NCBI GenBank assembly: GCA_001803645.1 | Contig: MHDW01000187.1 | Span: 1 to 13,514, forward strand | Direction of reading: 5' to 3' | DNA length: 13,514 nt | Source: Nitrospirae bacterium GWC2_42_7 | GTDB taxonomy: Bacteria; Nitrospirota; Thermodesulfovibrionia; Thermodesulfovibrionales; UBA6898 | Shown: piece by piece, positions 8,340 to 13,514 of the stretch | How the letters are laid out: each line of letters begins with the position of its first letter | Position numbering within the stretch: position 1 is the stretch's first letter | Program-made: the position numbers and the translations under genes | The notes under the pieces: generated by a model | Databases searched by the model: none | The model's input: the letters and a program-made list of their open reading frames with translations, nothing else | Told to the model about the DNA's origin: nothing

Positions 8340-9962
8340 CTACTCTTTTCCTGTAATAACCTTCTGTATTGTGTTTATTAATTCACTCATTTTATATGGT
8401 TTGACTAATACGCCGCAAAATCCATATTTTTTAAAATCAACCATTATCGGATCATTTGAATACCCACTCGAAACAATTGCTTTAATATCAGGGTATAGTT
8501 CTTTTAATATTTTTATTGCCTTTTTCCCGCCCATACCCCCAGGTATGGTCAAGTCCATAATGACCACATCAAAACATTCTCCGGATTCTTCAGCTTTTTT
8601 GAAGAGATCAATTGCCTCTGCTCCATTTTTTGCAAATCCAACCTTATATCCGCTATTACATAAAATTCTTTCCGCAATGCTCCTCACCATCTCTTCGTCG
8701 TCCATGACAAGTATTTTGCCGGTGCCTTTGATCTGTTTTTTTTCAGTCTTGCTTTCTATTACCAGCTCTTTTTCTGAAGCAGGCAGATAAATATAAAAAG
8801 TAGTGCCTGTATCCGGCTCAGATTTTACACTGATTATTCCATTGTGTCTTCTGATAATTGAATATGCTATCGCAAGTCCGAACCCGCTTCCTGTTGGTTT
8901 GGTGGTGAAATACGGGTCAAATATTTTACTCAAAAATTCATTGTTGATACCTGTTCCATGATCCATGATTGCTATCTGCACATATTTACCATACTGCAAT
9001 GGCAGACTGCTTTCATGGTCAATTACTCTGTTGCCGGCAAAAACAAAAACTATTCCTCCGTCAGGCATAGCCTGTACAGCATTGACAACTATGTTATGAA
9101 TTACCCGGCTTATCTGTCCTTCATCGATCTCTACCGGCCACAAGTCATCAGAAATAGAAAATTCAGACTTTATGTTCGAGCCGCTCAACATAAAGAGAGT
9201 GCAATCTGTCAATAAGCCGGCGATTGAAACAGTTTTTCTTATAGGAGAGCCGCCCTTCGAAAAAGTAATCAGCTGATTAGTCAAATCTCTTGCTCTAAGA
9301 GATGCCTTCTCAGCTTCTGTCAGTATTTCAAAGGCGCTGCCTGAAGGATCTGAATTGATTTTTGCAAGTGAAATATTGCCCAGAATAGCTGTAAGAAGAT
9401 TATTGAAGTCGTGAGCAAGTCCTCCGGCAAGAAGGCCGATCGATTCGAGTTTCTGTAGTTTCAGAACTTCTTCCTCATATTGTTTCAAGGTGGTAATATC
9501 CTGAAGTGTTTCAATAGCAGCCTTTATCTTTCCGCCTTTATTATGAATAGGCGCTGCATCAAAAATAATATAACGCTGCCCTGCAGGCAGATTCGGATAC
9601 CAGCCTTCAGCGCGAAGGCCGTTTGATATCAGAGATGATTTGCCGTAAGTAGTATAGTGATCCGACATTTTCTCATTGATTCCATCAATAATAATATCTG
9701 CAACTGTCGGCCTCTTCTTTTCATAAAATGCCTTCCAGTGATCTGTTGTACCGAGAATGTCTGATGAACTTATGCCTGTAAGCACTTCACATGCCTTATT
9801 CCAGTAAACAACTCTATGCTCAGTGTTAATTACAAAGGTTGCCACAGCAGAATATTGCAAAAGATTTTCATAAAATTCCTTCTGTTCTTTTAAATCCTTC
9901 TCTACACTCTTGAGCTTGAATTCTAATGTTGTTTTTTCATCATCACGCTCATGTTTATTCAT
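8340..9962 (-). CDS. Hybrid sensor histidine kinase (PAS-HisKA-HATPase-REC)
   Basis: This is a soluble hybrid kinase with no membrane segments. The chosen ATG 9962 gives 540 residues; AGGAG lies nine bases upstream. A further ATG at 9989 would add nine basic residues that overlap this site. Residues 10-35 form a coiled coil. A PAS domain (about 35-160) starts QYSAVATFVINTEHRVVYWNKACEVLTG and ends DITTLKQYEEE. The phosphoacceptor is H184 in LAHDFNNLLTAILGN. The ATPase domain has N290/N294, DHGTGI (334-339) and GSGFGLAIAYSI (358-369). The C-terminal receiver (about 416-535) has acidic D421/D422, phosphorylatable D470 (VVIMDLTIPGGMGG) and K521. HisKA with HDFNN is typical of NtrB-like or environmental hybrid kinases. 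It is divergent from the LysR gene. The output partner is not evident; the REC may act as a phosphorelay step or feedback module. Confidence 0.94.
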   Translation of the reverse strand: MNKHERDDEKTTLEFKLKSVEKDLKEQKEFYENLLQYSAVATFVINTEHRVVYWNKACEVLTGISSSDILGTTDHWKAFYEKKRPTVADIIIDGINEKMSDHYTTYGKSSLISNGLRAEGWYPNLPAGQRYIIFDAAPIHNKGGKIKAAIETLQDITTLKQYEEEVLKLQKLESIGLLAGGLAHDFNNLLTAILGNISLAKINSDPSGSAFEILTEAEKASLRARDLTNQLITFSKGGSPIRKTVSIAGLLTDCTLFMLSGSNIKSEFSISDDLWPVEIDEGQISRVIHNIVVNAVQAMPDGGIVFVFAGNRVIDHESSLPLQYGKYVQIAIMDHGTGINNEFLSKIFDPYFTTKPTGSGFGLAIAYSIIRRHNGIISVKSEPDTGTTFYIYLPASEKELVIESKTEKKQIKGTGKILVMDDEEMVRSIAERILCNSGYKVGFAKNGAEAIDLFKKAEESGECFDVVIMDLTIPGGMGGKKAIKILKELYPDIKAIVSSGYSNDPIMVDFKKYGFCGVLVKPYKMSELINTIQKVITGKE

Positions 9963-9996
9963 TTTATGAGGCTCCTTTTTTGCCCTCATGTTTATT

Positions 9997-11066: not shown

Positions 11067-12068
11067 ATGGTTTCGCCTTTTAGTCTGATAAAAGAAGAAA
11101 GGCCGTCTATTCTGGTTGTTGACGACGTAGAGTCCAACCTTGAATTAATGGAGGCAGTTTTTCACAGAGCAGGCTTTCTTGTACATAAAGCTCTGGGGGC
11201 AGAAAGTGCATTAGAGATCTACAGCAAACATCCTATCGATATTGCGATCCTTGATGTTATGATGCCCGGCATCAATGGATTTGAATTATGTAAATCATTT
11301 AAACATCTATCCAAAAAACAGTTCTTCCCGATTATCTTGCTTACAGCGCTGAGTGACACTAAAAGCAGGATCACAGGGCTTGAAGCTGGCGCAGATGACT
11401 TTATAAGCAAACCCTTCGAAACATCAGAATTGATCACCAAGATCAAATCCCTGCTAAAGCTAAAGGCTTTGCATGAGGAGCTTGATCATTCAGAAAATGT
11501 AATAATGACACTTGTAGTTGCTATGGAAGCAAGAGACCCTTACACAACAGGCCATTCTACAAGGGTCGGAGAACTCGCTAAAGAGTTTTCATCTTATCTC
11601 GGGTTTCCACAAAAGGATCAGGAGATAATGAAAAAAGCAGGGATACTTCATGATATCGGAAAGATAAGCTTGAGTGAAACGATCTTGAGCAAGCCTGGCA
11701 AACTTACTGAAGATGAAGCAAAGCTGATAAAAAAACATACCCTAATCGGAGAGGATATATGCCGTCCTCTGATGTCTCTCAGTGGGGTGCTCCCTGCAAT
11801 AAGAGGGCATCATGAAAGGTGGGACGGCTCAGGATTCCCTGATAGTCTTTCTGGTAATGATATTCCTCTTATGGCAAGGATACTCTCTGTTCTGGATTCA
11901 TTTGATGCAATGGTGTCCATAAGGCCATACCGTCAAAAGAGATCATTAGAAAACACGATAAGAGTTATGGAAACAGAACGATACTCTGGACAATGGGACC
12001 CTGAACTTACAGGGTTCTTTCTTAAAATGCTTAATTTTACCGGAGGCAACGGATACGGGCATGTTTAG
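11067..12068 (+). CDS. Response regulator with HD-GYP output, predicted c-di-GMP phosphodiesterase
   Basis: The protein has 333 residues. The receiver (about 12-130) has D19/D20, phosphorylatable D63 (ILDVMMPGINGFE), T93 and K115 (ISKPFE). A helical linker (130-145) leads to the HD-GYP domain. Its metal ligands and motifs include H163 (TGHSTRVGELA), H195-D196 with K199 (LHDIGKI), H224 (KKHTLIGED), H248-H249 and D277/D280. The motif is HHERWDGSGFP, so the third residue is Phe instead of Tyr (GFP for GYP), a known kind of variation. HD-GYP proteins hydrolyse cyclic di-GMP, and phosphorylation at D63 would be expected to control this. Its final 8 bases overlap the start of the sensor kinase downstream, so the two are very probably a cognate pair. 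It is cytoplasmic, with no membrane segment. Confidence 0.92.
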   Translation: MVSPFSLIKEERPSILVVDDVESNLELMEAVFHRAGFLVHKALGAESALEIYSKHPIDIAILDVMMPGINGFELCKSFKHLSKKQFFPIILLTALSDTKSRITGLEAGADDFISKPFETSELITKIKSLLKLKALHEELDHSENVIMTLVVAMEARDPYTTGHSTRVGELAKEFSSYLGFPQKDQEIMKKAGILHDIGKISLSETILSKPGKLTEDEAKLIKKHTLIGEDICRPLMSLSGVLPAIRGHHERWDGSGFPDSLSGNDIPLMARILSVLDSFDAMVSIRPYRQKRSLENTIRVMETERYSGQWDPELTGFFLKMLNFTGGNGYGHV

Positions 12069-13514
12069 AATAGCCATCGCTGGGGGCGGGATTGGGGGCA
12101 GTGCGCTTATTTCTCTTCTGAGAGGGGACCCTAATGCTGCTCTCGTAGGGATCTATGAACCAAAACAGGAAGCGCCCGGAGTTATTCTTGCCGGAAAATG
12201 GAATATACCGGTTTTCTCTGAGATCAAATCTCTTGTTGCTGCTAATCCTGAAATCGTCCTGAATCTGACCGGAAACATAGAAGTCAGCAATGAGATAAGA
12301 AAGGTTTTTAATGATAAAATCGAGGTCATCGAGGGGATTGGAGCAAGATTTATATGGGAGATAATAGAAAAACAGAAAAGGGCCAGGATAGAAGTAATAA
12401 AAACAACTGCAGACCAGAAGACTTTGTACAATCTTGCAGCCAAACTGTGTTCATCTGATTCTGTAAAAGATTTTTATGAAATGATGCTCTCAAGAGCGCT
12501 CGATATCGCAGATGCCCCGGCAGGCAGCATTGTTTTATATGAGAACAGACAGATGAAGCTGACAACTTCAAAAGGACTCAGCAAAAAATTCACTGAAAAC
12601 ACTGCATGGGATGTATTGCCAGGAGGGCTTACTGATAAGATACTTAAGGATAAAGAGTTTGTCGAGATATCCGACACCCTCAAGGTTGAATTTATAAACA
12701 ACCCTGCTATCGCCAATGAGAAGATAAGGTCTATTCTGGCCTGTCCTATAATGCTCAGGGGAGAAGTTGCCGGCGTACTGTACATTGACGATTTCAAACC
12801 AAGGCAATTCTCCGAGAGGCAGAAGACGTCGCTGAATCTGGCAACCGGCATAATTTCGACTGCAATAGACAGATTTTTACTTATGCGGGGCCTTGAGGAA
12901 TACAAAACAAAATTCTCCAATCTTATAGAATCATGCAATGACATTGTGCTGATAACAGATCCAAATGGGCTTGTAATATCAGGCAATGAATCTGCCCGTG
13001 AGCTTTTGGGATATTCATCAGAAGAACTTCTCGGCAAAACAATAACTTCAATAATAAAGAACGGGGATACCGCCAGTTCGATCAAAAAAGCGTTAGAACA
13101 TAAATCAGGCTTTAAAGGCAACGAGATCACAATCATTGACTCTAAAGGAAGGGAGCTTTTTGTTAAACTCAATGCTGTTATCCTTAATGATAAGAACGAA
13201 AATCAAACCGGCACTATTTTTGTGCTTCACAGCATTAATGAAGAACTTGACCTGAAAAATGCCCTTCAGCACAAAACAGGTGAACTTGAAGAATTGAACA
13301 CAAACCTTGAAAAAAAGGTACTGCAAAGGACCGAAGAGCTCGAAAAGACAAACAAAGAACTTGAAAGGATGAACCAGTTAAAAGGCCGCTTCATATCCAA
13401 CATCAGCCATGAACTCAGGACCCCGCTTAACTCAATATTGGGCTTTTCCAATGTACTGATAGAAAAGACTTTCGGCTCCCTGACCACTAATCAGGAACGA
13501 TATTTGCACAATAT
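12061..13514 (+). CDS. Sensor histidine kinase with N-terminal Rossmann-like domain, then GAF-PAS-HisKA, partial
   Basis: The frame is open from ATG 12061 to the window edge: 484 codons with no stop. Residues 1-105 look like a Rossmann nucleotide-binding domain. AIAGGGIGG (5-13) has GxGxxG, an acidic residue ends the second strand (IYEP, E33), and EIVLNLTGN (64-72) is a later strand. Residues about 118-272 form a GAF domain (ALDIADAPAGSIVLY and ILACPIMLRGEVAGVLYIDD). Residues about 280-392 form a PAS domain (LIESCNDIVLITDPNGLVISGNESA). A coiled coil spans about 395-442. HisKA follows, with H450 in FISNISHELRTPLNSILGF. The ATPase domain lies beyond the window. No transmembrane segment is seen, so it is a cytoplasmic sensor. 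E33 would favour NAD(H) over NADP(H). Nucleotide binding is inferred, not shown. Confidence 0.88.
   Translation, partial: MFRIAIAGGGIGGSALISLLRGDPNAALVGIYEPKQEAPGVILAGKWNIPVFSEIKSLVAANPEIVLNLTGNIEVSNEIRKVFNDKIEVIEGIGARFIWEIIEKQKRARIEVIKTTADQKTLYNLAAKLCSSDSVKDFYEMMLSRALDIADAPAGSIVLYENRQMKLTTSKGLSKKFTENTAWDVLPGGLTDKILKDKEFVEISDTLKVEFINNPAIANEKIRSILACPIMLRGEVAGVLYIDDFKPRQFSERQKTSLNLATGIISTAIDRFLLMRGLEEYKTKFSNLIESCNDIVLITDPNGLVISGNESARELLGYSSEELLGKTITSIIKNGDTASSIKKALEHKSGFKGNEITIIDSKGRELFVKLNAVILNDKNENQTGTIFVLHSINEELDLKNALQHKTGELEELNTNLEKKVLQRTEELEKTNKELERMNQLKGRFISNISHELRTPLNSILGFSNVLIEKTFGSLTTNQERYLHN

Follow-up and report, generated by a model that had tools for sequence, protein, structure and literature searches.

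A Rossmann-type input domain in a hybrid sensor kinase of Nitrospirota, a candidate receptor for NAD(H)

What does a fold familiar from dehydrogenases do at the front end of a sensor kinase? The question is raised by contig MHDW01000187.1 of Nitrospirae bacterium GWC2_42_7, a stretch of 13,514 nucleotides that is called the window in the following and ends within the 5' part of a hybrid sensor kinase gene (12061..13514, plus strand). The frame starts with an ATG at 12061 and is free of stop codons through the window end (484 residues). Since the window is one entire contig of a draft genome (70.8% complete), the gene is truncated. A first-pass annotation had proposed that a Rossmann-type domain precedes GAF and PAS domains in this kinase and reads the state of nicotinamide adenine dinucleotide (NAD+/NADH) or another nucleotide, or serves as a dead enzyme domain for ligand sensing. 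What stands of this interpretation is a Rossmann core like that of NAD dehydrogenases, with the acid typical of NAD binding, placed as an input before GAF and PAS; the part that concerns the ligand stays a prediction. By fold model, homology and NAD-type signature, residues 1-112 are shown as a predicted Rossmann domain, which probably descends from a dehydrogenase and comprises its NAD-binding half without the catalytic one.

The N-terminal Rossmann domain

The domain (12061..12396, plus strand; residues 1-112) is modelled as alternating beta-alpha-beta units with a parallel sheet, that is, as a Rossmann core. The sequence features noted earlier were all recovered. The glycine-rich GxGxxG loop is present as GGGIGG (12082..12099, plus strand; residues 8-13), strand 2 is closed by the acid E33 (12157..12159, plus strand), which would make the NAD-type ribose contact, and LTGN occupies residues 69-72. 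In NAD enzymes, the acid of strand 2 typically contacts the adenine ribose. When the first 112 residues were shuffled 200,000 times, a GxGxxG starting at residues 5-11 arose by chance in 1,314 cases; the motif alone is therefore modest evidence, and the claim is carried by the fold model, the profile matches and the family-wide conservation.

The isolated domain had no significant sequence match in the PDB (best E 0.19), no match in PHROGs at E 1, and aspartate dehydrogenase as its sole match in NCBIfam (E 0.15). Alignments were needed to detect homology. Similarity was detectable to the enzyme NAD-binding families Gfo/Idh/MocA, DapB, homoserine dehydrogenase and acylating acetaldehyde dehydrogenase (PF01408, PF01113, PF03447), the last enzyme being the best profile match with alignment set A2. 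PF01408 scored 24.1 bits on the isolated domain, against a curated cut-off of 24, and 21.0 bits on the whole protein. For the N-terminal stretch, Pfam and NCBIfam returned enzyme NAD-binding families only, with neither a sensor-domain name nor a named domain for a non-nucleotide ligand. Rex was absent among the 50 matches listed by the VIA-align search, which does not by itself exclude it.

With these dehydrogenases the module shares the Rossmann fold, the glycine loop and the strand-2 acid. It differs from them in lacking a catalytic domain, in its signalling outputs and in a near-invariant GxxAxxxW, a motif described in the present analysis, that leads into a long helix. This helix (12334..12453, plus strand; residues 92-131) starts with the motif and joins the Rossmann domain to GAF in the Rossmann-GAF model, where residues 91-100 have a mean pLDDT (predicted local distance difference test) of 65. 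The C-terminal substrate domain of Gfo/Idh/MocA proteins with its catalytic residues is not present; a GAF domain follows from residue 133 instead.

Occurrence, architectures and conservation

The survey of fusions to HisKA and sigma-54 activators suggested with the first-pass annotation found the domain to be common in its group, in several architectures and in two phyla. At E 0.001 or better it occurs in 23 of 41 genomes (the source genome and 40 relatives). Phylum-wide, profile matches were obtained in 197 of 295 genomes, a count that contains weak matches near the cut-off, probably enzymes. Architectures were determined in 20 + 20 loci plus 80 kept from 365 relatives (scan of named genomes, among the matches listed), sorted by home-made profiles with representatives confirmed by Pfam. 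Since the loci were picked as best matches, the resulting 113 complete, non-identical open reading frames (ORFs) are not a random sample. They comprise 72 Rossmann-HisKA_3-type kinases, 21 hybrid kinases of the window kind, 14 Rossmann-sigma-54 activator-HTH proteins, and three each of Rossmann-GAF-GGDEF proteins and Rossmann-NtrB-type kinases; 22 ORFs running off their locus were left out (20 of the hybrid/GAF kind, one sigma-54, one HisKA_3). The output domain of L078 and L075, sigma-54 or HisKA_3, starts at most about 50 residues after the Rossmann domain. A response regulator gene adjoins the HisKA_3 kinase in several loci, and the copy scanned (L077) consists of a receiver and a LuxR-type HTH.

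The source labels of the 80 loci are in 74 cases Nitrospirota or groups within it (Nitrospira, Manganitrophaceae, Troglogloeales); Nitrospira moscoviensis (L143) is included. The remaining labels are Deltaproteobacteria (four: L110, L119, L131, L133), "bacterium" (L125) and Nitrosospira (L155). The domain of L043, from a genome of the window's order, is 97% identical to that of a database protein labelled Thermodesulfovibrionales, which makes this order the probable group of the window itself. A GAF-PAS-GGDEF relative is labelled Candidatus Brocadiaceae at source. There the relatives' proteins are named PAS domain S-box protein, diguanylate cyclase or hypothetical protein. Short Rossmann-GAF database proteins of 295-296 residues were also seen (P0007, P0008, P0010, P0014-P0017, P0019-P0022), with GAF alone in the precomputed Pfam list; they are possibly partners acting via another protein.

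Around one Deltaproteobacteria-labelled genome (G305), 94 of 198 genomes have a match (E 0.001); weak, probably enzymatic matches near the cut-off are again included. This set has no genome in common with the search of the window's phylum and is thus taken as another phylum. Its sample of 22 stretches holds 23 ORFs carrying the domain. Five are kinases of the window kind (L192, L193, L194, L196, L198), five are Rossmann-PAS-NtrB-type kinases (L202, L203, L204, L208, L210), and in two further kinases (L200, L201) tandem Rossmann domains precede PAS and an NtrB-like kinase core. Sigma-54 activators occur twice (L199, L209), and HTH-Rossmann-GAF-GGDEF proteins three times (L195, confirmed by Pfam; two at L197, by similarity). 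Four free single-domain Rossmann proteins of 128-157 residues (L205, L206, L207, L211), which cluster together in the domain tree, are possibly soluble receptors or small regulators. L190, 777 residues long, combines GAF with a GGDEF-like end. L191 (268 residues) reaches 30 bits, compared with at least 52 bits for the best domain of every other ORF, and is read as a DapB-like enzyme. A tree of 73 thinned domains from the family requires at least eight changes of output type, the minimum possible being five; with 10 of 70 inner branches well supported, we make no claim on how often the domain was shuffled. Its fusion to so many other kinds of signalling protein suggests that the domain senses a metabolite or the redox state in the cytoplasm, as a sensor type not yet described; we regard this as probable, with a predicted ligand.

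Conservation was assessed in 135 aligned domains, the window's own being excluded and the 22 ORFs that run off their locus included. Position 33 is an acid in 134 of them (D 76, E 58, one gap), and the same holds for all 61 domains of a joint set thinned at 70% identity. The glycine loop is kept at G8 (133/135), G10 (119/135, N in 12) and G13 (125/135); position 68 is D or N throughout (135/135) and G71 occurs in 130. In the GxxAxxxW motif, which follows strand 5, A95 and W99 are each found in 133 domains. The second phylum shows D in 18 and E in 6 domains at position 33 (n=24, L191 excluded) and, with L191 included, E at position 68 in 9 of 25. The carboxyl edge of the sheet is the ligand side of a Rossmann fold. 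The loops at this edge are more conserved than those at the opposite edge (2.13 vs 1.36 bits; 55 of 20,000 permutations as high), both loop sets having been picked from the secondary structure of the model.

The two-gene unit and the output end of the kinase

The gene upstream of the kinase (11067..12068, plus strand) encodes a receiver (residues 15-127; Pfam Response_reg, 92.7 bits) and an HD-GYP-type domain (153-314; HD_5, 128.1 bits) with the motifs HDIGK at residue 195 and HHERWDGSGFP at 248. The two genes overlap by eight bases (ATGTTTAG; 12061..12068, plus strand), and GGAGG at 12042..12046 (plus strand), 14 bases 5' of the kinase ATG, is a possible ribosome-binding site. BLAST (E 1e-15 or better) gave a match to this partner immediately 5' of the kinase gene, in the same orientation, in 19 of 22 window-type loci. 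With ORFs taken from the first start, the same eight-base overlap recurs in 12 of the 22, and the other seven with a partner overlap by 4 to 76 bases. Kinase and receiver-HD-GYP protein together form a conserved two-gene unit. In the 659-residue database protein P0006, receiver-HD-GYP and Rossmann-GAF are fused in frame in the same gene order, with an odd junction that is perhaps an assembly frameshift. On the other side of the hybrid kinase gene, a DNA repair gene, for Ogt (O6-methylguanine-DNA methyltransferase), overlaps or directly follows in 15 of the 22 loci (L028-L038, L040, L041, L047, L091). The L033 copy served as the BLAST query, and the L028 copy was identified by Pfam.

Downstream of the long helix, the domains previously described in a single open frame were identified by Pfam. 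These are GAF (12457..12870, plus strand; residues 133-270; GAF_2, 45.5 bits), PAS (12910..13242, plus strand; residues 284-394; PAS, 49.5 bits at 284-392, and PAS_9, 55.5 bits at 294-394) and the start of the HisKA phospho-acceptor domain (13381..13509, plus strand; residues 441-483; PF00512, 44.1 bits), with H450 (13408-13410) inside SHELRTP (449-455). HATPase_c would lie past the contig end and was found in five of five full-length relatives scanned, in which HisKA is followed by HATPase, REC, REC and GGDEF; two of 21 complete ORFs have a single REC. A search of the draft genome with the C-terminal half of a relative returned 107 matches, none above 46% identity among the matches listed and the best-scoring at 30%. 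At such identities they were taken as other genes and not as the rest of the window kinase. A second sensor protein on the window (8340-9989, minus strand, 549 residues), in which PAS, HisKA, HATPase and a C-terminal receiver were recognised by eye, was matched in its receiver and kinase parts by the same search.

The end motif of the relatives is readable in 20 of 22 loci (L045 is truncated). The fourth residue of GG(D/E)EF is A, S or T in 19 of these 20, the exception being L042 with GIDEF. RGSD stands five residues before the signature in 20 of 20, under a pattern that itself demands RxxD; L044, missed by the pattern, has RGSD as well. GGEEF is intact in five of seven Rossmann-GAF-GGDEF proteins (L079, L086, L089, L195 and one at L197, but not the second at L197 or L190). 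RxxD binds cyclic di-GMP (c-di-GMP), and the fourth residue of GG(D/E)EF matters for catalysis. With RGSD kept and the signature degenerate, the C-terminal GGDEF probably reads c-di-GMP as feedback and does not make it.

A proposed NAD(H) receptor and its alternatives

The glycine loop, the strand-2 acid and the enzyme relatives make NAD+ or NADH the most likely ligand. Taken as a whole, the explanation we consider best, and moderately probable, is that the N-terminal 112 residues act as a Rossmann sensory module through which the NAD(H) state governs the kinase and thereby the c-di-GMP level. NAD+ or NADH would be bound at the carboxyl edge of the sheet, and the bound form would shift the pose of the long helix 92-131 into GAF. 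The helix signal could then pass via GAF, PAS and the coiled coil and, together with the GAF and PAS inputs, set the autophosphorylation of H450. Phosphate would move to the kinase's own receivers or straight to the receiver of the HD-GYP partner, switching c-di-GMP breakdown, and the degenerate GGDEF may feed the c-di-GMP level back. The net result would be a c-di-GMP level set by the cytoplasmic redox or energy state.

Several points weigh against this proposal. NAD(H) binding is predicted from sequence, and Rossmann folds also hold coenzyme A (CoA), S-adenosylmethionine, sugar nucleotides and other ligands; MurC and formyltransferases were also among the 50 matches listed by VIA-align. Free NAD is millimolar, so that a receptor must discriminate NAD+ from NADH to read their ratio. 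The roles suggested for phosphotransfer to HD-GYP and for GGDEF feedback rest on gene order and motifs. Three of the 22 loci (L042, L046, L092) have no adjacent partner, and the C-terminal half of the window kinase is known from relatives alone. The glycine loop itself varies: 12 of 41 window-type domains carry Asn in place of the second glycine, L040 has no first glycine (ASGDSG), and position 13 is Cys in 7 of 25 second-phylum domains (L191 included).

This variation in the loop would suit a ligand-free relic that offers the kinase a surface for dimerisation or docking, and the adjacent long helix could make dimer contacts. We find such a relic rather improbable, as its ligand-edge loops would hardly be more conserved than the opposite ones, the acid is kept throughout the thinned set, and the domain recurs on unrelated outputs. 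Somewhat more credible, if still unlikely, is a receptor for another metabolite, for instance CoA, acyl-CoA or a small substrate that binds beside a permanently retained NAD; such a receptor would report a pathway intermediate and not redox. Acylating acetaldehyde dehydrogenase, the best profile match, uses NAD and CoA, and the near-invariant GxxAxxxW may add a contact site; the acid typical of NAD and the shortness of a domain that has no second domain to hold a substrate argue the other way. An active enzyme fused to the kinase would agree with the homology to dehydrogenases, but the cofactor half stands alone, with GAF from residue 133 and, in L078 and L075, outputs within about 50 residues, and we give this very little credence. 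The thought that the Rossmann stretch is a separate gene, joined by assembly or a wrong start codon, arises from the contig's origin in a draft genome 71% complete. It has next to no probability and was dropped, as the identical fused order recurs in 21 complete ORFs of other genomes and in the database proteins P0003, P0009 and P0018.

The proposed NAD(H) module has precedents in part. Rex, an NADH-responsive repressor, uses a Rossmann domain as a cytoplasmic redox sensor, preceded by a winged-helix DNA-binding domain. The module resembles Rex in the first respect; it differs in that Pfam finds no winged-helix domain in the window protein, where the Rossmann domain starts at residue 1-2. Two-gene c-di-GMP systems are known in which a hybrid kinase with GAF/PAS inputs adjoins a receiver-HD-GYP protein. 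The window type is similar in gene pairing and GAF/PAS inputs and differs in its Rossmann input and in the relatives' degenerate C-terminal GGDEF with RxxD kept. Like the window kinase, KinA of Bacillus subtilis was proposed as a cytoplasmic NAD+ reader, there through PAS-A and thus a PAS fold, not a Rossmann fold. Its NAD+ sensing has been disputed on the strength of later assays, which also speaks against our proposal: autokinase activity was constant with excess NAD+ or NADH (PMC5552956). The accessible part of a review of stimuli for c-di-GMP proteins names heme, hemerythrin, flavin and disulfide sensors for oxygen and redox, and the word "Rossmann" is absent from it (PMC8846402), as it is from that of PMC12826045. 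Among the open-access papers listed by the literature searches, none describes the domain, judged by title and start of abstract; subscription journals and preprints lay mostly outside this scope, so that a description may exist. Apparently, known outputs are combined here with an undescribed input module.

We tentatively propose, at a little less than an even chance, that cytoplasmic NAD(H) is read by an undescribed receptor family in Nitrospirota and at least one other phylum. The family would serve as a shared redox input for two-component kinases, sigma-54 activators, diguanylate cyclases and hybrid kinases paired with HD-GYP enzymes, also in doubled and free single-domain forms, and one redox signal would set transcription and c-di-GMP together.

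To our knowledge, internal redox sensing in such environmental bacteria, including nitrite oxidisers, is poorly known. With a 112-residue module present in the named species Nitrospira moscoviensis, on many outputs, the question is directly testable. Proteins so far named PAS domain S-box protein, diguanylate cyclase or hypothetical protein would gain in annotation. If NAD(H) is bound, one family would tie the redox state to c-di-GMP, sigma-54 transcription and two-component signalling.
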